Source of the DNA: Crambe crambe
Taxonomy: Eukaryota; Porifera; Demospongiae; Poecilosclerida; Crambeidae
Length of the DNA: 64,000 bases
Assembly: GCA_963924555.1 (NCBI GenBank)
Contig: OZ004585.1
Coordinates: 9,104,000 to 9,167,999 of the forward strand
Reading direction: 5' to 3'
Shown here piece by piece: positions 1 to 64,000 of the stretch. Numbering within the stretch: the stretch's first letter is position 1; the number at the start of each line of letters is the position of its first letter. The notes beneath the pieces are model-generated. The model searched no databases. It saw only the letters and a program-made list of their open reading frames with translations, and had not been told where the DNA came from. The translations under genes and the position numbers were made by a program.

Positions 1-3000
1 GCAAAAGTGTCTATGTCAAGGACAAACTCCTTAATAGCTTGGATAAAGACATTTTCCAGCCACTGGTGATCAACTTTTCAGCTCAAACAAGAGCAGGCCA
101 AGTGCAGGACCTCATCATGTCAAAGCTTGATAAACGACGGAAAGGTGTGTTTGGACCTCCCTTGGGAAAGAAGAGTGTTATTTTCGTGGATGACTTGAAC
201 ATGCCAGCCCGTGAGATTTATGGGGCCCAACCTCCCATAGAGTTATTACGACAGTACATGGACCATGCTATGTGGTGAGTTCTCCCATGTCACTATCATT
301 ACAAGTATCCACACATACCTGATCCACTTTATCTCTTATAGGTATGATAAGAAAGACACCAGCAAGTTGTCACTGGTGGATATTCAGTTCCTGGCAGCCA
401 TGGGTCCACCAGGAGGTGGGCGTAACCCTATCACCCCTCGCTTTGTACGACATTTCAATGTCATCACCATAAATGAGTTTAGTGATGAAACCATGACTAG
501 AATTTTCTCTAGCATTGTCACCTTCTATCTGAGGAGGGAGAACTTTCCTCCTGAGTACCACACTTGTGGCACTATGATTGTCTCAGCCACCATGGATGTC
601 TACAAGGAGGCTATGCTCAACCTCCTTCCCACTCCGGCAAAGTCACACTATGTCTTCAACCTCAGAGACTTTGCACGTGTCATCCTTGGCTGTCTCCTGG
701 TCAAACCCAAAGTCATTTCCAGCAAGAGGCAATTTGTGCGCCTCTGGGTCCATGAGGTAGGCCAATATAGTTAATATAATTTATCGGCAGTATAATAAAA
801 TCACTTTGTGATGGTGCCTTGCAGGTTTATAGGGTGTACTATGACAGACTGGTGGACAATGTGGACAGGCTGTGGCTGTTCAACCTGATGGAGAAGATGG
901 TCAAGCAGCACTTCAAGGAGGATTTCCAAATTGTCTTCAAACATCTCTCCTCCAGTGGGGGAAAGATCATCGATGATGACATGAGGTCACTGCTTTATGG
1001 AGACTACATAAAACCTGATGCTGTGAGTCATACCCATGATGATAATGATTATGGCTAAGTGCTATTTTGTCGTCAGGAGGAAAAGTTTTATGAGGAAGTA
1101 GAGAGTCTTGATGAGTTGACTGGAGTGGTGGAGACAGCTCTGGAGGAATACAACAACATGCACAAGACCAGGATGAACCTTGTCATCTTCCGCTATGTCT
1201 TGGAGCATTTATCCCGCATCTGTCGTATCATCAAACAACCTGGGGGTAACGGGCTATTGGTAGGGGTTGGAGGGAGTGGCAGGCAGTCTCTCACTCGCCT
1301 TGCTACTTCCATGGCAGACTACCATCTCTTCCAACCTGAAATTAGCAAGAGTTATGGCAAGCTGGAATGGAAAGATGACCTCAAGGTACTCTATTTAAAA
1401 ATTTAGTTTTTTCCTGAGTTACTGACATACTCTGTGTAGGTTTTGCTGACGAGTGCAGGCAAAGAGGGTAAGATGACAGTATTCCTGCTGACAGACACAC
1501 AGATCAAGGAAGAGAGTTTCCTGGAAGATGTAGATGGCCTCCTCAATGCAGGTGAGGTACCCAACCTCTTTGAACTCGATGAAAAACAAGAAATTCTTGA
1601 GGTTTGTGAAATGAATTACAAGCTATTGTATTGATGGTTTGTATTATATGAATATGATGATTTAGGCCATGCGGCCACTTGCTCAGCAGCAAAATAGTGA
1701 AGTGGAACACACACCTCTTTCACTCTTTAATTTTTTTGTGAATCGCTGTCGAGAGAACCTCCACATTATTCTTGCCTTTAGTCCCATCGGAGATGCTTTC
1801 CGCAACAGGATGAGGAAGTTTCCATCCCTCATCAACTGCTGTACTATAGACTGGTTCTCAGCATGGCCTGATGATGCACTAGGTAAGTGTATACATGATT
1901 TATATACCAGTATATCAAGCCAGGACAAACAGGCAGTTTATGCACACTTTTTACATTCACTTTAGAAAAAGTTGCCAACCGTTTCCTGGAGGAAGTGGAA
2001 TTAACTGACCTTGAGCGATCAGCCACTGTCCCCCTCTGCAAACATTACCATCAGAGCACCAGGTAGCTCTGCCTACATAGCTATGTGACTGTAGATGACG
2101 ATTATACACTAATAGGGAGCTCTCTGAGAGGTTTAGTAAAGAGCTTGGTCGACACAACTATGTGACACCTACATCCTACCTGGAGCTCATCTCTTCCTTC
2201 AAGAGTGTGCTGGCAAATAAGAGAGGGGAGGTCCTCAAACTCAAGAAGAGGTATGAGGTCGGTCTCGAAAAACTCCAATTTGCTGCTTCTCAGGTTAGCC
2301 AGCTACTGTGCTAGTATAAACTGTATAGTACGTCATTGAAGTTTATATGAGGGAAGATACATAGTTGAGCAAATGTACGTATTGTGGAGTGAGAGAGATT
2401 TCTGTGTGTTCAGGCATTTTATACTCATAGAAATGGGAGGTGATAAAATATTAGTAGATGTACATGTGCAGCAAATTCTATAATCATCGTACATTGAAAA
2501 CAAATTTAAAAAATATTTCACTAGAGTCAAATTAATATGTGATGCATAGTTCAGTTATTTAGTGCAGACGACACAGTTTAGTTCCTGATGATTGGTATAA
2601 TATGGACAAGGAAGGCCACGGTTACACGCTGCTTCAACATGAAGAAAGAGGGCTCCATCAGTGCTCGTCAAACCACCATAAGGCAGGGACTCCATCTCCC
2701 TATCCACACATTCAAACATGGTGCGACCACGAATATCTCTTGCATGATCTCCTTTGTATTCAGTCATGAGGTAGCCGTAGTACTCCCTGGTCCAAGTGGA
2801 GGGGCAGGTGGCCTTGGCTGGGATCATCAACACTTTCGATCTTGTAGATAATTCGCACACAGCACAGGGCACATTATGATTATGAGTTCCAGTTCCTGAA
2901 ACTGGTACCTCATACTCTGACCCATACACATGAGCATATCCTTGTATTCCAGGTCTGTACGTGAGGGTAGTACTGTACTCTGGGTCCTTTGGCATGCAGA

Positions 3001-6000
3001 GGTAATTTGCTCCACCACCTCTCTGGTTGTAATTAGTTCCTCCGGCAATCCCTGAGTAGACCAACTCAGTACCCCCCACTTGAGGACAGGTGCTCTTCCC
3101 CCACCTGGTGTAGATAGTCCCCCCACTACGAGGTCCAGGGGGTCCTTGTTTCCCAGGGGTTCCAGCTGGTCCAGGGGGTCCAGCTGGTCCTTGGACTCCA
3201 TCTCTGCCTGGAATTGCAATGAGAGTTGTTAGGTTATCCTTGTCCTTTTAAAAGTTGCAGATAGTTGCTTGTAGTGAAAAAGAGTGATTTTTAAAATCTC
3301 TTTTTATACTCTTCCTGCTTGCTCAAGAAAAGCTATTACATGGTTGCTATTAACCTTTTAAAATAACTCTGCCATCCCTACATCCTGCTTACTCAAGTAT
3401 TTTAAGCCTATTTCATGATTGCAATTGACCTTTTATAATAACTCTGCCATCCCCACATGCATGACTAAGTTATAATCAGACAGCTGAGTTAACTTATAAA
3501 AATGACTATGGCTAGATCATGCTATCAAAGTGCAACATTGACGTTTGTATGGTAAATACTAGCTATGGTGCATGGTTGTCCCTAAGGAGGTAGTGGCTTA
3601 CAAGGACCACACAAACTATATCCATGCAGCTGTCATAGAGAATCCACCTATTTCCTTAGACTAGTCTACAGTGGGCAGTAGCATTCTCTGTGGGCTCCAG
3701 TTTTATAGCTTTCCACAATCCACCTTGTCGATAAGGGACACTGATATGTATCTAGTGCACATCTGCAGGTTGCTAGTATGCAGAAAGAGTTGGAGGATTT
3801 GCAGCCAAAGCTGGTGACAGCAAAGGACGAGAATGCTCGCATGATGGTGGTGATAGAGGAGGAGAACATTGAGGTGGAGGCTCGCAGTAAGGTGGTGCGT
3901 AAGGATGAGGAAGCTGCCAATGCCAAAGCAGCTGAAGCCCAGGCCCTCAAAGATGAGGTGACAGTGTACTAGTGCTACATTGCCAGCTTTGATAGTTCCT
4001 GCATCCATGCCTGTAGTGTGAGAGTGATCTTGCTGAAGCCATCCCAGCTTTGGAGTCTGCACTTGCTGCCCTGAATACCTTGAAGCCTGCAGACATCACC
4101 ATTGTCAAGACCATGAAGAACCCACCAGCTGGAGTCAAGCTAGTCATGTCTGCTGTGTGCGTCATGAGAGATATCAAGGCCGACCGCATCAATGACCCCT
4201 CAGGTTCAGGCAAGAAGATAGAGGATTACTGGGGACCTTCAAAAAGATTGTTGGGAGACATGAAGTTTCTGGAAAATCTAAAAGAGTATGACAAGGATAA
4301 TATCCCAGTGAGTTTTAGTTGTATTTTCCTGTAGCTAAATTAATTGATGATCTATTTGATGTTTAGGTTCACGTCATGAAGAAGATCAGGGCTGAATTTG
4401 TTCCTAATCCTGAGTTTGACCCTGTCAAAGTGCGGACAGCCTCTTCTGCAGCTGAGGGACTGTGTCGCTGGGTAAAGGCCATGGAGATTTACGATAGAGT
4501 GGCAAAGGTATGTATGGGTACAGCATGGAAGGGAGAATCCAGGCATGGACTATTAACTTTTGGGTGGATTTTTTCCCCTTGATATTGTAGGTGGTGGCTC
4601 CAAAGAAGGAGAGTTTGGCTATTGCAGAAGCATCACTGAAGGAGACCATGGCTATTTTGAACACCAAGAGAGCTGAGCTGAAGGAAGTGGAGGATCGTCT
4701 TGCTGCTCTCAAGCAGCAGTTTGAGGAAAAAACACGAGAGAAACAACAGCTGGAGGAACAGGTCAACCTCTGTGCCATGAAATTAGAGAGAGCGCAGAAA
4801 TTAATTGGTGGTCTTGGAGGAGAGAAAGATAGGTCAGCTACGTAGCTAAGAGGAATTTACTATCTTACTATGAATATCGATGGTATTGCATTCAGATGGT
4901 CAGCAGCAGCTAAGAGGTTGCAAGAGACTTACGACAACTTGACTGGGGACGTGTTGATTTCATCTGGAGTGATTGCTTACCTGGGAGCCTTCACCTCAGC
5001 ATTCAGGTAGTTCTAGTAGACTGTTCCTAGCATTGTAATTATTGTGGTATTTACTTGCAGAGGAGACTGCATCCGTGATTGGATCTCAGTATGCCAAAAA
5101 TATGAGGTGCCCTGTTCACAAGACTTTAGCCTGAGCAAGACACTGGGTGAACCCATCAAGATCCGTGCCTGGAACATTGCTGGCCTGCCCACTGATTCTT
5201 TCTCCATCGACAATGGAGTTATAGTGGCCAACGCCAGACGCTGGCCTCTCATGATAGACCCTCAAGGCCAGGCCAACAAGTGGGTCAAGAACTCTGAGAA
5301 GGAAAACAATTTGCAAGTAGTGAAGCTGACACAGTCTGACTACGTCAGGACTCTAGAGAATTGCATTCAGTTTGGGACTCCAGTGCTGATAGAGAATGTG
5401 GGAGAAGAGTTGGATCCAAGTTTGGAACCACTTCTACTCAAGCAGACCTTCAAGCAGGGTGGGGTTTACTGCATCAAGCTGGGGGATAACACCATAGAGT
5501 ATTCCAATGACTTCAGACTCTACATCACCACTAAACTACGCAACCCTCACTACTTACCAGAGCTATCCACTAAAGTCACACTTCTCAACTTTATGATCAC
5601 TCCCGAGGGCCTGGAAGATCAACTCCTAGGCATCGTGGTGGCTAAAGAACGGTATGTTTAGTCAGTGAGCATGCATTAGTCAAAAGTTGCTTTATATAAT
5701 TATGTAGGCCCGAGCTTGAGGAGGAGAGGAATGCTCTGATACTAACAAGTGCCTCTAACAAGAAACAACTGAAAGAGATAGAGGACAAGATCCTTGAAAC
5801 ACTCTCTACTTCAGAAGGAAATATTTTGGAAGATGAGTCGGCCATCGAGATCCTGGATACCTCGAAAGTCCTCTCCAATGAGATTTCCAAAAAGCAGAAA
5901 GTGGCGGAGGAGACAGAGAAAAAGATAGAGCAATCTCGGGCAGGCTATCAACCTGTTGCAAAGCATGGCTCTGTCTTATTCTTCTCAATAACAGAGTTGC

Positions 6001-9000
6001 CCAACATTGACCCAATGTACCAATACTCCCTCATCTGGTTTGTCAACAACTTCCTCATCTCAATAGCTGAAAGGTAAGACAATCCTCCTCCTTTTTCCTT
6101 GACTGCTAGTGCTTCCCTCCCTCTCCCCCATGCAGCACTAAATCAAAGCACCTTGATCGACGTCTTCGCTATCTGACTGAACATTTCACTTACAACCTGT
6201 ACTGCAATGTTTGCCGTTCACTCTTTGAAAAAGATAAGCTTCTTTTCTCCTTTCTGCTGTGCTGCAACCTCCTCACGTAAGTCCAGAACTAACAGCCATA
6301 AATGCTGTATTATTTTCATTAATGGTTACATTTAGAGCTAAGAAGAGCCTTGACTATGCAGAGTTTATGTTTTTCCTAACTGGTGGTGTGGGTTTGGAGA
6401 ACAAACTGAAAAATCCTTCTCCTTCCTGGCTCTCTGACAAATCCTGGGACGAGATCTGTCGTATGAGTGAGCTCAAGGCCTTTAGTGGTTTCAGGAAGAG
6501 TTTTGAGAGGAACTTGGAGGACTGGAAGAAGTATTATGACCATAGAGAACCACACTTGGCAACTCTGCCACAGCCTTGGAATGACCAACTCTCAGATTTC
6601 CAGAAGATGATGGTGTTACGTTCCCTACGTCCTGATAAGGTCATCCCACTGGTTATTAACTTTGTTAGGCTCAAATTGGGAGAAAAATTTGTGGAACCTC
6701 CTCCCTTTGACCTGGCACGCTCCTATGCTGACTCCAACAACACCATGCCTCTGATCTTTGTCTTATCACCAGGGGCTGACCCCATGGCAAGTCTCATCAA
6801 GTTTGCAGAGGACAAGGGGTTCAGTGGAGACAAGTTTAATGCCATATCATTAGGGCAGGGACAAGGTCCTGTTGCGCAGAAGATGATAGACTCTGCTGTT
6901 AGGGACGGGACTTGGGTGGTGCTGCAGAACTGTCACTTGGCTGTGTCTTGGATGCCTGCCATGGAGAAAATATGCGAGGAAATGAGGCCAGAAACTGTTC
7001 ACAATGACTTCAGAATGTGGCTCACGTCCTACCCTTCAGACAAGGTACACACTATATAGCTACTTACACCCTATTATAATACTTGCTAGTATTCATATTA
7101 ATATGAGTGTATTATAGTTTCCAGTGACAGTTCTTCAGAATGGAGTGAAGATGACCAATGAGCCTCCCACTGGCCTCAGACAAAACCTACTGCAATCTTA
7201 CCTGACTGACCCCATCTCCGACCCTACGTTCTTCCAAGCATGTTCCAATAGAGAACTGGTCAGTTGTTTTAGGGTCTCTCACTCACTTCTGGTTATGGGT
7301 TCTGGTTTTGACCTTCCTTCGACAGGCATGGGAGAAGCTGCTGTTTTCATTGTGTTTTTTCCACGCTCTGGTCCAAGAACGAAGGAAGTTTGGGCCACTT
7401 GGTTGGAACATCCCTTATGGGTTCAACGAGTCTGACCTGCGTATCAGTGTGAGGCAGCTGCAGATGTTTATCAATGAGTATGAGGAGGTCCCCTTTGATG
7501 CCATCACTTACCTCACTGGACAGTGCAACTATGGAGGCAGAGTCACTGATGATAGAGACAGGTACATACACATAGTTTATACTAGCTGGAGTGCATTTGT
7601 GATGATAATGCATTGGATGGCTGCAGGCGATGTCTAATGAGCATTCTGTCCACCTTCTATTGTCCCGAAGTGATCACTGACCCCAAGTATAAGTTCTCTC
7701 AGAGTGGCTCTTACTATGCTCCTCCCAAAGGTCGGTATTACTCCTCTTACAGTGAGGAACATTTTTTCATGTATAGTACTGTGAAATGGCAGGTGATTAC
7801 GAGTCATACGTAGAGTTCATCAAAGAGTTGCCAATGTCCCAGGCTCCAGAAGTTTTCGGCATGGATGATAATGTGGATATCTCTAAGGAGCTCCAGGAGA
7901 CAAAGCTCCTATTTGACTCCATCCTCCTCACTCAAAACCAGCATGGAGGCAGTGGTAGTGGCAAACAAACTGAAGACACACTCAATGAAATTGCTTCTGA
8001 TATTCTTTCAAAGGTATATAATTAACTAAAGGCTCCGGAAAAAGATCTCCAAAATCGTGTTCCCCTTTTAGTTACCAGAGAACTTTGACCTTGAAGAGAC
8101 TATGGCCAAGTACCCGATTCGTTATGAGGAGAGTATGAATACAGTGCTGGTCCAGGAAATGGAGCGGTTCAACAGACTTATAAATGCCATCCGTTCTTCC
8201 CTGACCAACCTTAAAAAGGCCATCAAAGGTCTTGTGGTCATGAATGCTGAACTAGAGGCCCTTGCCACTTCTTTACTGGTGGGAAAAGTCCCAGACTACT
8301 GGGCAAAGAGTTCTTATCCCAGCCTCAAACCACTTGGAAGTTACGTGGCTGACTTTCTTCAGCGTCTCAAATTCCTCCAGGACTGGAAGGACAAAGGAAA
8401 ACCTACAGTCTTCTGGATTTCAGGATTCTACTTCACACAGGTAGCTAGCTACGTCAGTGTCAAACACGATTATCTCTACCATGTTTTAACACGCAGGCTT
8501 TCCTAACAAGCACATTGCAGAATTATGCTCGGAAGTTTGTCATTCCTATAGACAAACTCTCTTTTAAGTTTGAAGTAATGAATGTAGACATGTGTGTTAA
8601 ACCACCAGAAGACGGTGTTTATACCAAGGGACTCTTCCTGGATGGTGCTAGGTGGAGTAGGGAAAAGTATGTCATGGCCAATTCCAGGGACTGTTCAGTC
8701 ATTCTGTCCTATCCCTTATCTATAGAGACGTGTTAGTGGAGCAACTTCCAAAAGTTCTCTATGACCCCATGCCTGTTATCTGGTTTAAACCAGGTGGGTG
8801 ATAGCACTATAATAGATGTACCAAGATAATAATGGATCACTGTGTGTAGCTAAAAAAGATGACTTGGAAGACGAGGGTTGTTATGTGTGTCCTCTGTACA
8901 AGACAAGTGCTCGTCGAGGCACCCTCTCCACCACAGGGCACTCCACAAACTATGTCGTCTCCATTGACCTGCCCACCAACAAACCTGTAAAGTACTGGAT

Positions 9001-9040
9001 ATTGCGAGGCTGTGCCCTACTCTGCCAGTTGGACGACTAA
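1..9040 (+). CDS. Axonemal dynein heavy chain, inner-arm type (DNAH3/7/12 group), C-terminal half; 5' partial, ~25 exons
   Basis: The dynein heavy chain is the ATP-driven motor of cilia and flagella. The visible part is about 2,040 residues of a protein normally near 4,000. It opens inside the AAA3 Walker A (GKS at the first bases), then shows VFVDD-like Walker B ([19 protein letters not shown]) and GPPGGGRNP. The AAA4 P-loop GVGGSGRQS lies near 1265-1295. Two coiled-coil stalk arms (about 2116-3957 and 4591-4831) flank a microtubule-binding region (4017-4507, [14 protein letters not shown]). AAA5 (about 4895-5651), AAA6 and the C-terminal domain follow, ending in a [18 protein letters not shown] tail at TAA 9038-9040. 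Exons are joined by GT/AG introns mostly of 50-70 bp. The exception is 2294-3768 (1,475 bp), which holds an antisense collagen exon. AAA1, AAA2 and the tail lie upstream of the window. Subgroup assignment is from remembered family sequences; DNAH7 is as likely as DNAH3 or DNAH12. Confidence 0.93.
2555..3207 (-). CDS. Short-chain collagen C-terminal exon, nested antisense in a dynein intron
   Basis: The exon starts after a plausible 3' splice site (CAG at 3208-3210, minus strand). It encodes a short run of collagen Gly-X-Y triplets ([20 protein letters not shown]) followed by about 190 residues of cysteine-rich globular domain. That domain opens with [14 protein letters not shown] and contains [26 protein letters not shown] and CVVCTK before the TAA at 2555-2557. 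This layout matches the short-chain (spongin-like, C4-type) collagens known from sponges and cnidarians, which are extracellular matrix proteins. There is no frameshift or internal stop. I found no upstream exon (signal peptide or more Gly-X-Y) in the remaining ~560 bp of the intron. It could therefore be the 3' exon of a truncated duplicate, or part of a gene with tiny exons I missed. The whole unit lies inside intron 2294-3768 of the dynein gene on the opposite strand. Confidence 0.8.
3220..3768. other. Rest of the large dynein intron, AT-rich with a short tandem duplication
   Basis: No coding exon was recognised on either strand. Around 3308-3450 a ~70-90 bp AT-rich segment occurs twice in tandem (cctgcttgctcaag / cctgcttactcaag, each followed by a ctattaacctttt / gcaattgacctttt block and aactctgccatcc). 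Confidence 0.5.
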
Positions 9041-9152
9041 TTCATCACCAGTTAATTAGCTTAGTAGTATTATGCAACACGAACTTTTTAAAATTATTTT
9101 TGTAAAGGGGTGGGGCTAAGTCGGGGTGTGGTTTCGCGATCCAATTATAATT

Positions 9153-10514
9153 ATGTCGACTGGGCAGAGAAGATTAGACACTATTCTTGGGCACCTGAAA
9201 GCGAGCAGTGCCGCAGGTGGCGATGTCAAGTACCGCTATAGCATGGATGGAGAGAGTGCGGGGGTGCTGACGAGGGAAGAGAGACAGCACTATGAGGACA
9301 ACGGCTTCTTAGTTGTGAAGGGTCTAGTCCCATTACACGACATAGACACTTACAGGGAACGATTCAGAAAGATCTGCACTAAAGAGGTGGAGGTAATTGA
9401 TCTATCAACCATGCCACTGTATTGTGATTTTAGTAGTTGCAATGCACATAATTATTATAGGTACCTGGTATGACTGTGATGAAAGATGTAGCCATTGCAA
9501 AGTCAGAGTTCCAAACGGGAGAAAGAGCTATAAACAAGATACAAGATTTCCAGGTGGGCATGCATGATGTGCAGGTTGGGCTTGTTAGACTAGGGGTACA
9601 GCTGCAGTGACCCCAAAGATAAGAAATGCACTTTAGCCATTTTTCACACAATCATAGTTTGACCCAGTGTTGTTGGAATACTGCAAACTCCCTGAGGTGG
9701 TGCGCTATGTTCAGTGCTTCACTGGACCCGACGTGATGGCAATGCACACCATGCTCATCAACAAACCACCTGATCCAGGCTCAAAAACCTCACGTCACCC
9801 CATGCATCAAGGTCAGCTTTTAAAGTGGGAGACTCCGAACCAATCACTACATTTACCTCATCAATAGATCTACACTATTTTCCTTTCCGACCTGCCGACC
9901 GGATAGTGTGCAGTTGGACAGCCATGGAACATGTCCACAGACAGAATGGTTGTCTGGTTGTGTTGCCTGGCACCCATAAGTTGGAGTTGCTGGACCATGC
10001 TTACCCAAAGTGGGAGGTGAGTATTTGAGAGTGCAGGATGCTGTATAATCACTTATTGAACATAGGGAGGAGTAAATAAAATGTATTATGGGATCTTGGA
10101 CTATGACCCTTCCTATCCTCGTGTCCATTTGGAGATGCAAGCAGGAGACACGGTGTTTTTTCATCCCTTACTCATCCATGGTTCTGGCACCAATCGAACA
10201 AATGGCTTCAGAAAAGTATAATGAAATTGGCAGCGTTAGGATTTGACTAGACATGATTTAATACTGGCAGGCAATCTCCACACACTATGCCAGCTCCCAC
10301 TGCCAGTATGTATCTGTGGAAGGCACTTCACAAGAAGCCCTTTCAAAAGAAGTGCAAGAAATAGCTAGAAAACGCTTGGGCTCAGACGTGGAATTCACCT
10401 ACGACGTCAGTCAAACACTTTTAAACTTTCAGAAAATTTTACTAACCTACTTCTATGCAGATGGTATGGAGATTGAAAGGTGTCTGTGTTCATGGACAGC
10501 AAGTCAACCTTTAA
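9153..10514 (+). CDS. PHYH: Phytanoyl-CoA 2-hydroxylase, peroxisomal
   Basis: This Fe(II)/2-oxoglutarate dioxygenase hydroxylates phytanoyl-CoA in peroxisomal alpha-oxidation. The start at 9153 is chosen because it places RLDTILGHL near the N terminus, an exact PTS2 signal (R-L-x5-H-L). An in-frame ATG at 9126 would add only nine residues. The iron site is HQD: His is encoded at 9805-9807 and the Asp codon is split by an intron. It is followed by [26 protein letters not shown], and the distal histidine in [11 protein letters not shown] with the 2-oxoglutarate arginine in GFRK. The last exon (10461-10514) is tiny and gives [17 protein letters not shown], aligning with the usual end of PHYH; it needs a GTCAGT donor near 10395. 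The start lies only 112 bp after the dynein stop. Length (about 320 residues) is normal for the family. Confidence 0.93.
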
Positions 10515-13529: not shown

Positions 13530-16500
13530 ATGGAGGACCAGAAGAAAGCTGCAGTGAAGGGGGGTGTGTTACTTTGCTTGACTGCAATCCTGGGTTCTGA
13601 TCAAGATGCAAGAAAGACAGCTGAGCAAGAGCTAAAAGCCCTTGAGGTCACTGAAGGTCAGATGTAGATCCACCCACCCACTCACCTCTTTACTGTTCAA
13701 GGTTTGGTGCAGAGTTTGGTGTTATTCTTGCCGAGATAACTGCCTCAGAGGAGAGTCCAGTGCAGTACAGACAGGTACGACAGAGTAGCTGGTGTGATAC
13801 GGATTTATGACATCTATCTGATCTCCTTTATAATTGCTTCTCTATCAATTCCCTTTCTCTCCCCCTCCCTCATTGTGTAGCTTGCCTCCATCATCCTTAA
13901 GCAGTACATAGAGGTGCACTGGAGCAGGATAAGCAACAAGTTTCAGGAGCCCGAGCTGCAGGAAAGGGTGACTCACTGATCCTCTTTCTCACAAGTATAA
14001 CAATAGATTTCTCCTTGGTTTTGTTGATAGACAAAAGTAGCCATAAAGCACCTGCTTCCCTCTTGTTTGGGAGATAGCCAGAGTAAGGTCAGAGCTACTG
14101 TGGTGAGTGCAGCATTTATACCCATAAGAGCCACGCACTATCGTACCTACTTGGCAGGCCTATGCCATCTCAGCCATTGCTCAGTGGGACTGGCCCGAAA
14201 ACTGGCCAGACTTATTTGACTACTTGATGGCGTCTCTAGAGTTGGGGGACCCTAACCTTGTGCACGGCACCATGCGAGTGCTTACAGGTGCGACTCTGTG
14301 TGTGTGTGTGTGTCATTAGTCCATTATACTTCCATCTTCACCTGCAGAGTTTTGCCAAGATGTTTCAGACACTCAAATACCTCATGTGGCCACTGCCATC
14401 TTTCCTCACCTGCTCAAAGTTATTTTGGAGGCTGACCTCTACACTGTGCACACCAGAACTCGGGCTATTCACATCTATAACATCTTATCTGGTCTCATCT
14501 TCACTGTCAGTGCAATATTCCCTGTAAGACTTTTATAGATGCTTAGTAACAAAATATCCCCATTAGTTCTTAATAACAGGGGCACTCAAAATACCCCCAT
14601 TAGTTCTTAATAACAGGGGCACTCAAAACATCCCCATTAATTCTTAATAACAGGGGTGCTCAAAATATTCGGGCACTCAAAATATCTCAGTTCTTAATAA
14701 CAGGGGCGCTCAAAATATCCCCATTTGAGCATACCCTCCTTTACTGATTAGGATGCTGCTAAGGTGATCTTATTTCCATCACTGGAAAAATACTTGCAAG
14801 CATTTGTGGATATCCTTGATAGCGAGATGCCTAGCAACGCAGACTATGGATTGCGGAAAGAGGTCATCATGACACTGTGTCATTTGCTACGCTCCTTCAC
14901 ACAAACCCTGACCCCTCATATTATGAGTGTGGTGACACCAGTGTGGAAGATTTTGACTTCTGGGACAACTGTGTTAGTCATCATTATTATTAGTTGCTGT
15001 ACAGACTCTTCAAACATGTTGCTCTCATATTGCAGGTACTTGAATACTGTGGTCAACTCTGACCAGGAAGTGGAGGGAGTGTGTGACTCGGATGGAGAGG
15101 TCATAGGTCAGGAGAGTACCATATTTGCAGTATTTGAATTTATTAATGTGCTTGGAGAGAGCAGTAGTCTCCAGAAGCTCCTCCCACCAATTCTGCCGCA
15201 GTTGGCATACCTCCTAATCGTCCACATGCAGGTCACTCAAGAACAGGTTAGGCGTGGAGTGAGAGAGGGAGAGAGAGGAGTGTATCATGGTGTTTAGGGA
15301 GAGGGGTGTACCATGGTGTTTAGGGAGAGGGGTGTACCATGGTGTTTAGGGAGAGGGGTGTACCATGGTGTTTAGGGAGAGGGGTGTACCATGGCGTTTA
15401 GGGAGAGGGGTGTACCATGGTGTTTAGGGAGAGGGGTGTACCATGGTGTTTAGGGAGAGGGGTGTACCATGGCGTTTAGGGAGAGGGGTGTACCATGGTG
15501 TTTAGGGAGAGGGGTGTACCATGGTGTTTAGGGAGAGGGGTGTACCATGGTGTTTAGGGAGAGGGTGTTTTTGTGAACTGTGTACATGCAGTTTAGCTGC
15601 TGGATTGAAAACGTCAACCAGTTTGTGGATGAAGATGAGAATGAACTATCGTACTCCAGTAAGCCTCTTATGCATTATTTCATCCTAGTAGACGTAGCTA
15701 CTTTTAATTCAATAACGCTCAAAAATTAATCTAAGATGCCTAGATTGACCATTCAAACTTCTCCATTATGTTCACATGATGTCTAGATTCAGATGTATTC
15801 CCAATTAAGGTTATGTAGACTTATTATTATTATTTTGTAGTTCGCTTATCAGCATTTGACTTGGTGCAATCTTTCGTTGAAGAGGAGACGTTAGCTGGTC
15901 CTTGCTACAATGCCATCATTGATGCCATCAAGAAGCACTTGCAGGAAACCCCACCTCACTCCTCACCTCACTGGTGGAAGGTCAGGTCAACTCCCTGAAA
16001 CATTGACCTTCCCTGCTTACTGACCTGTCCACAGGTGCACGAGGCCTGCATGTTGGTATGCAGCGTATTGCTGGATGGAGTCAAAAATGAACTAGTGCAA
16101 TTTGATGTGGAGAAGTTCATGGGTGAAGTTATGTTACCAGATATTGCTGCAGATAGTGAGTGTCCAATGACTACAAGTCAAAGCAGGTCATTACAAGTGT
16201 ACGTACATGCACACATAGCCTCCTCTCTATTGAGTGGTCGATGTCTCTGGTTGGCTGGGAAAATGGCCTCCTTTCTTTCCCCTCCTACGCTCCTTAAGTG
16301 AGCACCAAAAGTTGTTCTAGTTAGTGAGCACCAACTGCATATCGCTTTTGTTCAGGCTAATGGAGATAATTGCAAGTGCCTTACAACCTTCTCAGAAGCC
16401 CGTCCTGAGGATTCTTACAGCTAAGGCAACCTACTAGTCAGTTTTGTTCCTCTGAGTAGGATACTGCACAAACATGATCACTCAAACATTATATCACAGC

Positions 16501-40731: not shown

Positions 40732-40959
40732 TTAAAGAGATGTTTATGATTCCTGGGCCAGCCACCTAACTCTACCAAGTTACACGACGAATACTAAACT
40801 GGATGCATCATTACCTTGACGGTTCTGCAAACTCAAGATTTGCGAGTGACCTATAATTATTATCTCACAGGTTTTGTGTCGTAGTAGATTTCTCCGTAAA
40901 GCAAAGGAGATGCATAACAGTCATCTTGGTGAGAAAATTTGTTGGCTTCTAAACAGACA

Positions 40960-53032: not shown

Positions 53033-53061
53033 CTAGGGCTAGGGCTAGGGCTAGGGCTAGG
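53033..53061 (+). repeat. Interstitial CTAGGG tract, forward orientation
   Basis: Four complete CTAGGG units plus ctagg lie exactly between the AT-rich satellite and block S copy 2. Unit and orientation are the same as in the terminal array. Confidence 0.95.
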
Positions 53062-54394: not shown

Positions 54395-55300
54395 GCAGGT
54401 ATAAAACATGTACATAAAACACAATCCCTCCAAATTCCCTCTTGTGTGGAAGGATCTCTTGAAGTTTGAACGTTTCGATCAATCCATTGCACTGAAATCA
54501 ATCTCCTCGGCCGCAGCTTTAACCTCTTGGCTCCTTAATCGATACATACTTTAACCTCAACCTAGTCTACATAATAACACAATCCTCCTAATTCCCTCTT
54601 GTTTGAAATGATCTCTTGCAGTTTAAAAATTTCGCTGCAGCTATAACCCCTTGGCTTGTAAATTGATACATACTTTACCCTCAACCTAGTGTACATAAGA
54701 ACACAATCCCTCCAAATTCCCTCTTGTATGTTGCAGTTTGAACACTTTGATCAATGAAATCAATCTCCTTGGCAGCAGCTTTAACTCCTTGGCTCCTTAA
54801 TTGATACATAGCTTTCTCTCAACCTAGTGAACACAAGAACACAATCCCTCCAAATTCCCTCTTGTATGAAAGGATCTCTGAAGTTTGAACATTTCGCTCA
54901 ACCCATTTGCACTGAAATCAATTTTCTTGGCCGCAGCTTTAACACCTCGTTCCTAAATTGATATGTACCTTTCTCTCTTCTAAGAACACAATTCCTCAAA
55001 ATTCCCTCTTGTATGAAAGGATCTCTTGAAGTTTGAAAGTTTCGATCAATCCATTGAACTTAAAACAATCTCCTCGGCCGCAGCTTTAACCTCTTGGCTC
55101 CTAAATCGATACATACTTTTCTCTCACCCTAGTGTACATAAGAACACAATCCCTCTTGTATGAAAGGATCTCTTGCAGTTTGAACGTTTGGATCAATCCA
55201 TTGCACTGAAATCAATCTCCTAGGCCGCACCCTTGGCTCCTAAATTGATACATACCTTTCTCTGACCCTAGTGTACATAAGAACACAAATGCAAATTTGG
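54395..55300. repeat. Subtelomeric satellite, ~145-bp unit, about 6 copies
   Basis: Units start with acacaatccctccaaattcc near 54420, 54578, 54705, 54838, 54987 and 55146. They continue with ctcttgtatgaaaggatctc, ttgcactgaaatcaatctcc, ggccgcagctttaacc and ttggctcctaaat-gatacat. Copies vary in length from internal deletions. Confidence 0.87.
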
Positions 55301-55513
55301 ACAGAAACAGTGAGAGCATTGGACAACCAACTTGCAATTCAGTTAACACTTGAACTCTGCCAACCAACTTGTATGTAGTATACATTGAGACTTACTGGGG
55401 TTGCCTCATATCAGGGATCCTAATTAGAGGGAGTTTATTGTATTCATGCAAGTATTGCGACAAATGGGACAAGGTCCCAACATCAATTTGGGACCAATGG
55501 GACCAGAACCCAG
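55301..55513. repeat. Subtelomeric block U, copy 2
   Basis: Matches 47250-47530: accaacttgcaattca, gtatacattgagactta, gggagtttattgtattcatg, then gggacaaggtcccaacatca. Here the gggacc repeats run directly into a C-rich CCCTAG tract. Confidence 0.82.
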
Positions 55514-55547
55514 CCCTAGCCCTAGCCCTATCCCTAGCCCTAGCCCT
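55514..55547 (-). repeat. Interstitial CTAGGG tract, reverse orientation
   Basis: About five to six CCCTAG units with one degenerate unit (ccctat). This is the complement of the terminal array, so the tract is inverted relative to the chromosome end. Confidence 0.93.
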
Positions 55548-57825: not shown

Positions 57826-58000
57826 GTTACTGCAGGTTACAGGAGGTTACTGCAGGTTACAGGAGGTTACTGGAGGTTACTGCAGGTTACAGGAGGTTAC
57901 TGGAGGTTACAGGAGGTTATCAGAGGTTACTAGGAGGTTACAGGAGGTTACTGCAGTTACAGTAGGTTACTAGGAGGTTACAGGAGTTATTGCAGGTTAC
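57826..58000. repeat. Minisatellite, 11-12-bp unit (ggttac[a/t]gga/cag)
   Basis: About 15 copies of an 11-bp unit alternating aggttactgc and aggttacagg, with one- to two-base slips toward the right end. Confidence 0.9.
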
Positions 58001-58116
58001 AGTAGCAGTGGAGTAGGAATAGGAAATTTATTGGGGGGGGGGCAGGAACAATAAGTTAATCACAGTAATAGCAACAATCTTTCTGTCATTAACTAGCCCT
58101 AGCCCAAAAATTGTGA

Positions 58117-58255
58117 TGGAATGAAAGTATTGTGGGTATCATATTTTACTGATATCCTCAAATTAAACATGTGATCAGAAAGTACACACAGAGAGCAATG
58201 TACTGATATTAAAATTATCAGAAAAATATGATAACCACAATACTTTCATTCCATA
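58117..58255. repeat. Short inverted repeat, ~25-bp arms
   Basis: atggaatgaaagtattgtgg (left arm, about 58120) and ccacaatactttcattccat (right arm, about 58235) are exact complements separated by about 90 bp. It may be a small foldback element. Confidence 0.75.
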
Positions 58256-58379
58256 AAAATTTGTGGAATATAAAGAAATATAATAGCATTGCCCTCTGTT
58301 TAAGCTTTCTATCGATATGCTTAGTTTAGCCATACTGATAATTTCGAAAATATATTGTAAAAGGTCTTCAAAATAACTG

Positions 58380-58850
58380 ACGATTAACATAACTTTTGAA
58401 ATATCAAGTGTATACAGATAATTTCGATATCATAGCATTGCTCTTTACGTAAGCTTTCTGTTCATATGCTTACTTTCTCCATTCGACAATTTTCAAAACA
58501 AAGGTAAAGTGTCGTCAAAATTCCAACATACTCATAACTGATGGTGACTTCTGGCTATAATAACTTTTGAAATATCATGTATATACATACAATTTTAATA
58601 CCATAGCATTGTTTTTTATGTATGCTTTCTGTTCATATGCTTACTTTATCCATTCCGATAATTAAAAATATGGTAATGTTTCTTCAAAGTTCATAACTGA
58701 TGGTGACTTCTGGCTATCATAACTTTTGAAATATCAAGTATATACATATTATTTTGATATCATAAAATTGCTCTCTGTGTAAGCTTTCTGCTAATATGCA
58801 TATTTTGTCCCTATTGACAAAGTTCAACTATCCAGAACATTCTCTTCACT
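58380..58850. repeat. Tandem repeat, ~170-bp unit, about 3 copies
   Basis: Units contain ataacttttgaaatatcaag, tatacatac, catagcattgct, gtaagctttctgttcatatg and cttactttatccatt, near 58390, 58560 and 58725. Confidence 0.82.
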
Positions 58851-58934
58851 ATAAACTTTCATAATATTCACCCACATTTTGTTCTTAACACACACATATT
58901 TAAGACAATTGCGCATGTCAATTACCAACTACGC

Positions 58935-59473
58935 ATATTTCTCCAATTGATGCCCACCATATCTAATTGATGCCCACCATATCTAATTGATGCCCACCAT
59001 ATCTAATTGATGCCCACCATATCTAATTGATGCCCACCATATCTAATTGATGCCCACCATATCTAATTGATGCCCACCATATCTAATTGATGCCCACCAT
59101 ATCTAATTGATGCCCACCATATCTAATTGATGCCCACCATATCTAATTGATGCCCACCATATCTAATTGATGCCCACCATATCTAATTGATGCCCACCAT
59201 ATCTAATTGATGCCCACCATATCTAATTGATGCCCACCATATCTAATTGATGCCCACCATATCTAATTGATGCCCACCATATCTAATTGATGCCCACCAT
59301 ATCTAATTGATGCCCACCATATCTAATTGATGCCCACCATATCTAATTGATGCCCACCATATCTAATTGATGCCCACCATATCTAATTGATGCCCACCAT
59401 ATCTAATTGATGCCCACCATATCTAATTGATGCCCACCATATCTAATTGATGCCCACCATATCTAATTGATGC
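58935..59473. repeat. 20-bp minisatellite abutting the telomere, ~27 copies
   Basis: An almost perfect array of aattgatgcccaccatatct. The first copy is preceded by ctcc. The last copy breaks at aattgatgcc, where CTAGGG begins without spacer. The copies look identical, implying recent amplification or homogenisation. Confidence 0.95.
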
Positions 59474-62400
59474 CTAGGGCTAGTGCTGGGGCTAGGGCTA
59501 GGGCTAGGGCTAGGGCTAGGGCTAGGGCTAGGGCTAGGGCTAGGGCTAGGGCTAGGGCTAGGGGCTAGGGCTAGGGGCTAGGGCTAGGGGCTAGGGCTAG
59601 GGCTAGGGCTAGGGCTAGGGCTAGGGGCTAGGGCTAGGGCTAGGGCTAGGGCTAGGGCTAGGGCTAGGGCTAGGGCTAGGGCTAGGGCTAGGGCTAGGGC
59701 TAGGGCTAGGGCTAGGGCTAGGGCTAGGGCTAGGGCTAGGGCTAGGGCTAGGGCTAGGGCTAGGGCTAGGGCTAGGGCTAGGGCTAGGGCTAGGGCTAGG
59801 GCTAGGGCTAGGGCTAGGGCTAGGGCTAGGGCTAGGGCTAGGGCTAGGGCTAGGGCTAGGGCTAGGGCTAGGGCTAGGGCTAGGGCTAGGGCTAGGGCTA
59901 GGGCTAGGGCTAGGGCTAGGGCTAGGGCTAGGGCTAGGGCTAGGGCTAGGGCTAGGGCTAGGGCTAGGGCTAGGGCTAGGGCTAGGGCTAGGGCTAGGGC
60001 TAGGGCTAGGGCTAGGGCTAGGGCTAGGGCTAGGGCTAGGGCTAGGGCTAGGGCTAGGGCTAGGGCTAGGGCTAGGGCTAGGGCTAGGGCTAGGGCTAGG
60101 GCTAGGGCTAGGGCTAGGGCTAGGGCTAGGGCTAGGGCTAGGGCTAGGGCTAGGGCTAGGGCTAGGGCTAGGGCTAGGGCTAGGGCTAGGGCTAGGGCTA
60201 GGGCTAGGGCTAGGGCTAGGGCTAGGGCTAGGGCTAGGGCTAGGGCTAGGGCTAGGGCTAGGGCTAGGGCTAGGGCTAGGGCTAGGGCTAGGGCTAGGGC
60301 TAGGGCTAGGGCTAGGGCTAGGGCTAGGGCTAGGGCTAGGGCTAGGGCTAGGGCTAGGGCTAGGGCTAGGGCTAGGGCTAGGGCTAGGGCTAGGGCTAGG
60401 GCTAGGGCTAGGGCTAGGGCTAGGGCTAGGGCTAGGGCTAGGGCTAGGGCTAGGGCTAGGGCTAGGGCTAGGGCTAGGGCTAGGGCTAGGGCTAGGGCTA
60501 GGGCTAGGGCTAGGGCTAGGGCTAGGGCTAGGGCTAGGGCTAGGGCTAGGGCTAGGGCTAGGGCTAGGGCTAGGGCTAGGGCTAGGGCTAGGGCTAGGGC
60601 TAGGGCTAGGGCTAGGGCTAGGGCTAGGGCTAGGGCTAGGGCTAGGGCTAGGGCTAGGGCTAGGGCTAGGGCTAGGGCTAGGGCTAGGGCTAGGGCTAGG
60701 GCTAGGGCTAGGGCTAGGGCTAGGGCTAGGGCTAGGGCTAGGGCTAGGGCTAGGGCTAGGGCTAGGGCTAGGGCTAGGGCTAGGGCTAGGGCTAGGGCTA
60801 GGGCTAGGGCTAGGGCTAGGGCTAGGGCTAGGGCTAGGGCTAGGGCTAGGGCTAGGGCTAGGGCTAGGGCTAGGGCTAGGGCTAGGGCTAGGGCTAGGGC
60901 TAGGGCTAGGGCTAGGGCTAGGGCTAGGGCTAGGGCTAGGGCTAGGGCTAGGGCTAGGGCTAGGGCTAGGGCTAGGGCTAGGGCTAGGGCTAGGGCTAGG
61001 GCTAGGGCTAGGGCTAGGGCTAGGGCTAGGGCTAGGGCTAGGGCTAGGGCTAGGGCTAGGGCTAGGGCTAGGGCTAGGGCTAGGGCTAGGGCTAGGGCTA
61101 GGGCTAGGGCTAGGGCTAGGGCTAGGGCTAGGGCTAGGGCTAGGGCTAGGGCTAGGGCTAGGGCTAGGGCTAGGGCTAGGGCTAGGGCTAGGGCTAGGGC
61201 TAGGGCTAGGGCTAGGGCTAGGGCTAGGGCTAGGGCTAGGGCTAGGGCTAGGGCTAGGGCTAGGGCTAGGGCTAGGGCTAGGGCTAGGGCTAGGGCTAGG
61301 GCTAGGGCTAGGGCTAGGGCTAGGGCTAGGGCTAGGGCTAGGGCTAGGGCTAGGGCTAGGGCTAGGGCTAGGGCTAGGGCTAGGGCTAGGGCTAGGGCTA
61401 GGGCTAGGGCTAGGGCTAGGGCTAGGGCTAGGGCTAGGGCTAGGGCTAGGGCTAGGGCTAGGGCTAGGGCTAGGGCTAGGGCTAGGGCTAGGGCTAGGGC
61501 TAGGGCTAGGGCTAGGGCTAGGGCTAGGGCTAGGGCTAGGGCTAGGGCTAGGGCTAGGGCTAGGGCTAGGGCTAGGGCTAGGGCTAGGGCTAGGGCTAGG
61601 GCTAGGGCTAGGGCTAGGGCTAGGGCTAGGGCTAGGGCTAGGGCTAGGGCTAGGGCTAGGGCTAGGGCTAGGGCTAGGGCTAGGGCTAGGGCTAGGGCTA
61701 GGGCTAGGGCTAGGGCTAGGGCTAGGGCTAGGGCTAGGGCTAGGGCTAGGGCTAGGGCTAGGGCTAGGGCTAGGGCTAGGGCTAGGGCTAGGGCTAGGGC
61801 TAGGGCTAGGGCTAGGGCTAGGGCTAGGGCTAGGGCTAGGGCTAGGGCTAGGGCTAGGGCTAGGGCTAGGGCTAGGGCTAGGGCTAGGGCTAGGGCTAGG
61901 GCTAGGGCTAGGGCTAGGGCTAGGGCTAGGGCTAGGGCTAGGGCTAGGGCTAGGGCTAGGGCTAGGGCTAGGGCTAGGGCTAGGGCTAGGGCTAGGGCTA
62001 GGGCTAGGGCTAGGGCTAGGGCTAGGGCTAGGGCTAGGGCTAGGGCTAGGCTAGGGCTAGGGCTAGGGCTAGGGCTAGGGCTAGGGCTAGGGCTAGGGCT
62101 AGGGCTAGGGCTAGGGCTAGGGCTAGGGCTAGGGCTAGGGCTAGGGCTAGGGCTAGGGCTAGGGCTAGGGCTAGGGCTAGGGCTAGGGCTAGGGCTAGGG
62201 CTAGGGCTAGGGCTAGGGCTAGGGCTAGGGCTAGGGCTAGGGCTAGGGCTAGGGCTAGGGCTAGGGCTAGGGCTAGGGCTAGGGCTAGGGCTAGGGCTAG
62301 GGCTAGGGCTAGGGCTAGGGCTAGGGCTAGGGCTAGGGCTAGGGCTAGGGCTAGGGCTAGGGCTAGGGCTAGGGCTAGGGCTAGGGCTAGGGCTAGGGCT

Positions 62401-64000
62401 AGGGCTAGGGCTAGGGCTAGGGCTAGGGCTAGGGCTAGGGCTAGGGCTAGGGCTAGGGCTAGGGCTAGGGCTAGGGCTAGGGCTAGGGCTAGGGCTAGGG
62501 CTAGGGCTAGGGCTAGGGCTAGGGCTAGGGCTAGGGCTAGGGCTAGGGCTAGGGCTAGGGCTAGGGCTAGGGCTAGGGCTAGGGCTGCTAGGGCTAGGGC
62601 TAGGGCTAGGGCTAGGGCTAGGGCTAGGGCTAGGGCTAGGGCTAGGGCTAGGGCTAGGGCTAGGGCTAGGGCTAGGGCTAGGGCTAGGGCTAGGGCTAGG
62701 GCTAGGGCTAGGGCTAGGGCTAGGGCTAGGGCTAGGGCTAGGGCTAGGGCTAGGGCTAGGGCTAGGGCTAGGGCTAGGGCTAGGGCTAGGGCTAGGGCTA
62801 GGGCTAGGGCTAGGGCTAGGGCTAGGGCTAGGGCTAGGGCTAGGGCTAGGGCTAGGGCTAGGGCTAGGGCTAGGGCTAGGGCTAGGGCTAGGGCTAGGGC
62901 TAGGGCTAGGGCTAGGGCTAGGGCTAGGGCTAGGGCTAGGGCTAGGGCTAGGGCTAGGGCTAGGGCTAGGGCTAGGGCTAGGGCTAGGGCTAGGGCTAGG
63001 GCTAGGGCTAGGGCTAGGGCTAGGGCTAGGGCTAGGGCTAGGGCTAGGGCTAGGGCTAGGGCTAGGGCTAGGGCTAGGGCTAGGGCTAGGGCTAGGGCTA
63101 GGGCTAGGGCTAGGGCTAGGGCTAGGGCTAGGGCTAGGGCTAGGGCTAGGGCTAGGGCTAGGGCTAGGGCTAGGGCTAGGGCTAGGGCTAGGGCTAGGGC
63201 TAGGGCTAGGGCTAGGGCTAGGGCTAGGGCTAGGGCTAGGGCTAGGGCTAGGGCTAGGGCTAGGGCTAGGGCTAGGGCTAGGGCTAGGGCTAGGGCTAGG
63301 GCTAGGGCTAGGGCTAGGGCTAGGGCTAGGGCTAGGGCTAGGGCTAGGGCTAGGGCTAGGGCTAGGGCTAGGGCTAGGGCTAGGGCTAGGGCTAGGGCTA
63401 GGGCTAGGGCTAGGGCTAGGGCTAGGGCTAGGGCTAGGGCTAGGGCTAGGGCTAGGGCTAGGGCTAGGGCTAGGGCTAGGGCTAGGGCTAGGGCTAGGGC
63501 TAGGGCTAGGGCTAGGGCTAGGGCTAGGGCTAGGGCTAGGGCTAGGGCTAGGGCTAGGGCTAGGGCTAGGGCTAGGGCTAGGGCTAGGGCTAGGGCTAGG
63601 GCTAGGGCTAGGGCTAGGGCTAGGGCTAGGGCTAGGGCTAGGGCTAGGGCTAGGGCTAGGGCTAGGGCTAGGGCTAGGGCTAGGGCTAGGGCTAGGGCTA
63701 GGGCTAGGGCTAGGGCTAGGGCTAGGGCTAGGGCTAGGGCTAGGGCTAGGGCTAGGGCTAGGGCTAGGGCTAGGGCTAGGGCTAGGGCTAGGGCTAGGGC
63801 TAGGGCTAGGGCTAGGGCTAGGGCTAGGGCTAGGGCTAGGGCTAGGGCTAGGGCTAGGGCTAGGGCTAGGGCTAGGGCTAGGGCTAGGGCTAGGGCTAGG
63901 GCTAGGGCTAGGGCTAGGGCTAGGGCTAGGGCTAGGGCTAGGGATAGGGCTAGGGCTAGGGCTAGGGCTAGGGCTAGGGCTAGGGCTAGGGCTAGGGCTA
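59474..64000 (+). repeat. Terminal telomere-type array (CTAGGG)n, ~4.5 kb
   Basis: About 750 units of CTAGGG run to the last base of the window. The G-rich strand reads 5'->3' toward the end, the orientation of a native right-hand telomere. Variants cluster at the proximal edge (ctagtgctgggg near 59480; CTAGGGG units at about 59560-59625). Elsewhere only isolated changes occur: a missing G near 62050, an extra GCT near 62584, and A for C at 63944. The usual animal unit is TTAGGG; here the first T is C throughout. Confidence 0.92.

Follow-up and report, generated by a model that had tools for sequence, protein, structure and literature searches.

CTAGGG as the most likely main telomere unit of the sponge Crambe crambe

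The array at the end of the window

The stretch analyzed here (the window) comprises 64,000 nucleotides of the demosponge Crambe crambe (Porifera, Demospongiae, Poecilosclerida, Crambeidae; assembly GCA_963924555.1, contig OZ004585.1, here C8, positions 9,104,000 to 9,167,999 of the forward strand). Its outermost part, at 59474-64000 of the + strand, is a tandem array of the hexamer CTAGGG, which Tandem Repeats Finder describes as a repeat of period 6 (consensus CTAGGG, 754.5 copies, 99% matches) and which holds 749 exact units in 4,527 bp. The G-rich strand is directed at the chromosome end, the orientation of a telomere, and base 64000 of the window is the final base of contig C8 (9,167,999 bp). 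This array is most likely the telomere at the right end of Crambe crambe chromosome 5, represented by contig C8. The initial annotation had described about 4.5 kb of nearly pure CTAGGG in telomeric orientation up to the window end, and this description holds; unique sequence beyond the array was looked for as well, and contig C8 terminates inside it. The array has few non-standard units: CTAGTGCTGGGG at 59480, CTAGGGG at 59558, 59571, 59584 and 59621, CTAGG at 62046, CTGCTAGGG at 62585 and ATAGGG at 63944.

The array is preceded by a typical subtelomere, as had also been claimed, with a satellite, blocks common to other chromosome ends and short interstitial tracts of CTAGGG all present. The satellite (58945-59474, + strand) consists of 26.5 copies of the 20-bp unit AATTGATGCCCACCATATCT with 100% matches, and its type is also found beside eight further telomeres. 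It joins the array after GATGCC, base 59474 fitting satellite and array alike. The region 57914-59473 (+ strand) is a subtelomeric block common to other chromosome ends: aligned with the left end of C17 it shows 95.8% identity across 1,580 columns, and aligned with the left end of C14 the part from 58216 to 59473 shows 95.5%. Further inwards, the repeat scan revealed two interstitial CTAGGG tracts, one of 6 copies with one change on the - strand (55512-55547, about 30 bp at 55514-55543) and one of 4.8 copies on the + strand (53033-53061, 24 bp exact at 53033). The subtelomere also contains three copies of a 147-bp tandem repeat (54853-55288, + strand), and positions 54961-55288 of it have a counterpart at the left end of C17 with 99.4% identity.

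As for the genes of the window, Pfam domains passed the cut-off in six of the ten open reading frames scanned (dynein in two, P-type ATPase in two, ribophorin I and ubiquitin hydrolase in one each), while one further frame had a weak importin match and three had none. There is also a 26-bp minisatellite at 15273-15565 (11.3 copies, 97%), and most TTAGGG in the part of the window around it is there because the hexamer arises by chance at the joins between its copies.

Chromosome ends in the assembly

The genome searched amounts to 143,139,886 bp in 119 contigs, a single assembly from a single individual. We have surveyed the outermost 500 bp at both ends of the 18 contigs longer than 1 Mb (140,970,413 bp together), that is, 36 chromosome-scale ends. 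CTAGGG oriented outwards made up this stretch at 28 of them, and an array of TTAGGG was present at none. By chromosome, 17 out of 18 carried outward CTAGGG at one or both ends, the exception being C1. The initial annotation had proposed a chromosome end of CTAGGG instead of the animal TTAGGG and had considered that the remaining ends might carry the latter; the CTAGGG unit turned out to be genome-wide, with no TTAGGG array among the 36 ends. At the right end of C13 six CCCTAA do occur within the 500 bp, dispersed in a longer repeat without forming a tandem array. No array was seen at the ends of the 22 smaller contigs examined out of 101 (three of them at both ends, nineteen at the left end).

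Along the whole genome, (CTAGGG)4 starts at 40,889 sites (19,099 plus 21,790), and since the reversed control gave 0 a chance origin of the arrays is excluded; at 6 bp per start, the total CTAGGG array comes to approximately 245 kb. For (TTAGGG)4 the corresponding number is 2 (one plus one), each 24 bp long and both interstitial. CTAGGG is thus most likely the main telomere unit of Crambe crambe and, judging from the one individual sequenced, would be fixed in the species.

Two inner arrays that appear to reflect wrong assembly joins were excluded from the tally of ends. At the left end of C12 (L022, C12:1-10000, positions 765-9999) a satellite is followed by CTAGGG and then, head-to-head, by CCCTAG, the two arrays being separated by about 200 bp rich in CCTAGG. 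This is probably a false telomere-to-telomere join of the assembly, to which the palindrome CTAG at the core of the unit would have contributed, or else it may be a real fusion. The left end of C1 (L008) has inward-facing CTAGGG about 10 kb in, which covers 10215 to at least 11734 and is perhaps an inverted end piece.

Origin of the arrays

The CTAGGG telomere of Crambe crambe is very probably made by an ordinary animal telomerase with a changed RNA template. By an A-to-G change, the CUAACCC of other animals would have become CUAGCCC, in one permutation or another, and the matching telomerase RNA template would be a permutation of CUAGCCCUAG. Such a telomerase would add CTAGGG to the chromosome ends, and broken ends of the subtelomeric satellite would be healed with the same unit by pairing of their last bases to the template.

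A way to examine the product of this putative enzyme is the purity of the arrays. We have parsed 15 of them whole, the window array and those of 14 left ends, with assembled lengths from 4,509 to 8,579 bp, and CTAGGG made up 14,557 of the 14,620 units (99.6%). The commonest variant was CTAGGGG (23 units, 17 in proximal and 6 in distal halves); CTAGG appeared 14 times, 13 of them in distal halves, where thin coverage may contribute, and ATAGGG four times. TTAGGG-like units were represented by one TTAGGG and one TTAGGGGG, both in the proximal half. Given such purity, both copies of the changed position would be altered if the template is long, and one change would be enough if it is short; the template of human telomerase has 11 nt.

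These figures also bear on the idea that CTAGGG is only an inner variant part, telomerase still making TTAGGG at outer tips that were unreached by the reads or left out by the assembler. In humans CTAGGG is described as a variant repeat found proximally in telomeres of TTAGGG (PMC7073516), the assembled arrays, of 4.5-8.6 kb, are possibly limited by read length, and there is no array in the last 500 bp at eight of the 36 ends. However, the TTAGGG-like units do not rise outwards (two in proximal halves, none among those listed for distal halves), the first units at the satellite joins are CTAGGG and not TTAGGG, and the only two (TTAGGG)4 in 143 Mb are interstitial. We consider TTAGGG tips very unlikely.

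The joins between satellite and array provide a second glimpse of how the ends were formed. Nine of the 15 whole arrays directly adjoin a satellite with a 20-bp unit of the type CTAATTGATGCCCACCANNT. Their joins come after CTA at five left ends (C5, C11, C14, C19 and C20), after GATGCC at the right end of C8 (the window) and the left end of C18, after CCATA at the left end of C17 and after TTGA at the left end of C10. The overlap between satellite and telomere is 3 nt at the first five, 2 nt at C17 and 1 nt at C8 right and C18; the C10 join has an extra G and no overlap, so that eight of the nine joins overlap by 1-3 nt. Among 20,000 simulated random joins of the two sequences, the mean overlap was 0.46 nt and an overlap of 3 nt appeared in 2.3%. 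We read the joins as telomerase addition to broken satellite ends whose last bases paired with the template. Since the five identical joins may stem from fewer events, we count at least four events of addition and not nine.

Exchange between chromosome ends also takes place. The other six whole arrays begin on other sequences, and because C6 left and C8 left have nearly equal junctions, and C3 left and C13 left similar flanks, sequence must have passed between ends; the subtelomeric blocks common to different ends, at 78-99% identity, lead to the same conclusion. Together with the five identical satellite joins, this could be taken to mean that the arrays are kept by recombination between ends, a spread of CTAGGG satellite resembling the alternative lengthening of telomeres, with no changed template at all. 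Against recombination stand the at least four join positions on one satellite, with eight of nine overlapping the telomere register, and the 99.6% uniformity of the arrays. Closely related subtelomeres also have different joins: across 57914-59473 the window shows 95.8% identity to C17 left, but the two telomeres start at different satellite positions. In addition, a telomerase-specific domain of TERT is present (see below). Recombination as the source of the arrays has in our view a slim chance of being right, and the maintaining activity would be telomerase.

Finally, although array artifacts exist (the head-to-head join of C12 left, the inward array of C1 left), almost no weight can be given to basecalling error, misassembly or a contaminant genome as the source of the pattern, because 28 ends on 17 of the 18 chromosomes agree on both strands, TTAGGG outside the arrays is called normally (20 in the window), the window genes are animal (dynein, ribophorin and P-type ATPase domains), and the assembly data are described as PacBio high-fidelity (HiFi) reads at 459-fold with a quality value (QV) of 58.1 (PMC12166358), at which a uniform reading of T as C, the error envisaged by the initial annotation, is not credible.

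Telomerase and telomere-binding proteins

A TERT RNA-binding domain (PF12009) lies on C6, in two pieces with E values of 1e-13 and 1.9e-6, and was recovered again in a second scan. The first piece has one stop inside the six-frame match, compatible with an intron, and one of the two matches PDB entries 4o26 and 4lmo (E 3.4e-4 and 7.3e-4), which are named telomerase reverse transcriptase and presumably are fish proteins. The evidence for TERT in the genome consists of this RNA-binding domain. Two POT1-type domains were located in separate long open frames, at C20:502097-502486 (+ strand) and C21:151856-152215 (- strand); the frames have 623 and 491 codons and the domains E values of 7.4e-25 and 4.4e-11, so that two POT1-like genes are predicted in one sponge. 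The TRF homology domain (PF08558) had no match in the genome, and the controls were silent too.

Within the window, Rfam gave no match at gathering thresholds. In order to find candidates for the telomerase RNA in the genome we have used the template pattern DCTAGCCCTAGCD, which stands for an 11-nt template in the human register, with flanking bases that depart from the array sequence. It occurs at 74 places, compared with 12 for the reversed control, and 71 of them were gathered in 58 loci (all 13 tandem copies on C12 fall into one locus and two adjacent places on C8 into another, and three of the five clustered places on C14 lie outside). U-rich followed by A-rich runs and a P6.1-like hairpin, the latter a criterion that comes from human telomerase RNA, singled out none of the 58 loci; a U-run followed by an A-run is found in 13 of them, which has little meaning in AT-rich DNA. 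At least seven of the 58 (L075, L080, L098, L099, L108, L109 and L122) look like copies of one dispersed repeat, present on several chromosomes and with GCTAGCCCTAGCT near one end. The C12 locus (L131, C12:247500-248000) consists of at least 13 tandem copies of a repeat of about 28 bp, all of which contain CTAGCCCTAGC in an unrelated sequence context. Sponge telomerase RNAs have been described in three species, among them Amphimedon queenslandica, and are reported to have been reached only via models retrained stepwise (PMC8480181).

Several results weigh against a telomerase with a changed template. Eight of the 36 ends lack an array within their outermost 500 bp, namely both ends of C1, the left ends of C12 and C15 and the right ends of C10, C13, C17 and C21. 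The five identical joins among the nine on satellite are possibly copies of one event. The telomerase RNA family RF00024 had no match genome-wide at E <= 0.001 among the 27 first-look candidates that were scored out of 286; the 14 control genomes were silent too, hence this is no evidence of absence. Nor did cmscan list a telomerase RNA in the 58 loci at E values up to 10. On the protein side, a regular expression found none of the TERT catalytic motifs (A to C) in 8 kb of L073, and a 105-aa open stretch after the RNA-binding domain, similar by eye to TERT motifs 1 and 2, matched nothing in Pfam or PDB. The change of template put forward by the initial annotation finds indirect support in the purity of the arrays, the join points and the TERT domain, while no RNA was found in the searches made, and for this reason we infer the change from its product.

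CTAGGG in Crambe crambe and in other systems

The initial annotation knew of no animal with CTAGGG as its main telomere, and our search of the literature, judged largely by titles and the openings of abstracts, found no report of one either, a database-only record being possible. The genome note of Crambe crambe (PMC12166358) makes no mention of telomeres. The word "telomeric" is absent from the demosponge genome papers among the matches listed, "telomer" from the genome papers of Ephydatia and Diacarnus, and CTAGGG from the main text of the TeloBase and tidk papers, where again the record could exist in a database only. On this basis, the one-base change of the hexamer would be new as the main telomere of an animal, in a phylum where none was expected.

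In human cells the same unit is troublesome. Human CTAGGG arrays are reported to mutate in the male germline at a rate of 20% per gamete, perhaps via quadruplexes or C-strand structures (PMC7073516, citing Mendez-Bermudez 2009), and the CTAGGG quadruplex to form five times slower than that of TTAGGG, quadruplex formation alone not explaining the instability (PMC8136832). In a DNA fold prediction, which leaves quadruplexes outside its model, (CTAGGG)8 reached -5.2 kcal/mol via CTAG pairing and (TTAGGG)8 0. Self-pairing of the G strand may occur, but as a special property of (CTAGGG)8 it was discarded, 200 of 200 shuffles folding at least as well.

In Crambe the main unit is thus one that causes trouble in human telomeres, and since it makes up the normal telomere here, the sponge lends itself to a natural test of what makes (CTAGGG)n unstable in human cells. 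We see an even chance that in a sponge lineage CTAGGG has taken the place of TTAGGG for good, via a template change, and that this lineage lives on a repeat that is hypermutable and oddly folding in human telomeres. Its telomere proteins or its replication would then have to handle CTAG overhangs that pair with themselves as well as a modified quadruplex; otherwise, the human instability would not be intrinsic to the repeat. This would be a non-canonical main telomere in a non-bilaterian phylum where one would assume TTAGGG without question. A single-base change makes the co-evolution of telomerase RNA, TERT and POT1 testable, and the expected template motif is a handle for finding the RNA. 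In practice, TTAGGG probes, assays of TTAGGG product and TTAGGG-based curation of assemblies would miss the telomeres of Crambe.

Compared with the TTAGGG telomere of animals, which relies on TERT and an H/ACA-type telomerase RNA, the ends of Crambe are alike in their six-base G-rich unit with GGG, their orientation and their terminal arrays of kilobases, and the TERT RNA-binding and POT1-type domains are also found in its genome; the Crambe unit, in contrast, begins with C and not with T throughout. The variant repeats of human telomeres share the very same unit, but there CTAGGG is confined to the proximal part, whereas in Crambe it occupies the whole array at the examined ends. The insect TTAGG and the compound units of bumblebees (Bombus) are, like the Crambe repeat, units changed genome-wide with telomerase presumed, although the changes are others and so are the phyla (PMC8480181; PMC11814493). 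Telomerase RNAs have been described from the same phylum, and by analogy with them the RNA of Crambe should have a template-pseudoknot, a CR4/5 and an H/ACA domain (PMC8480181).

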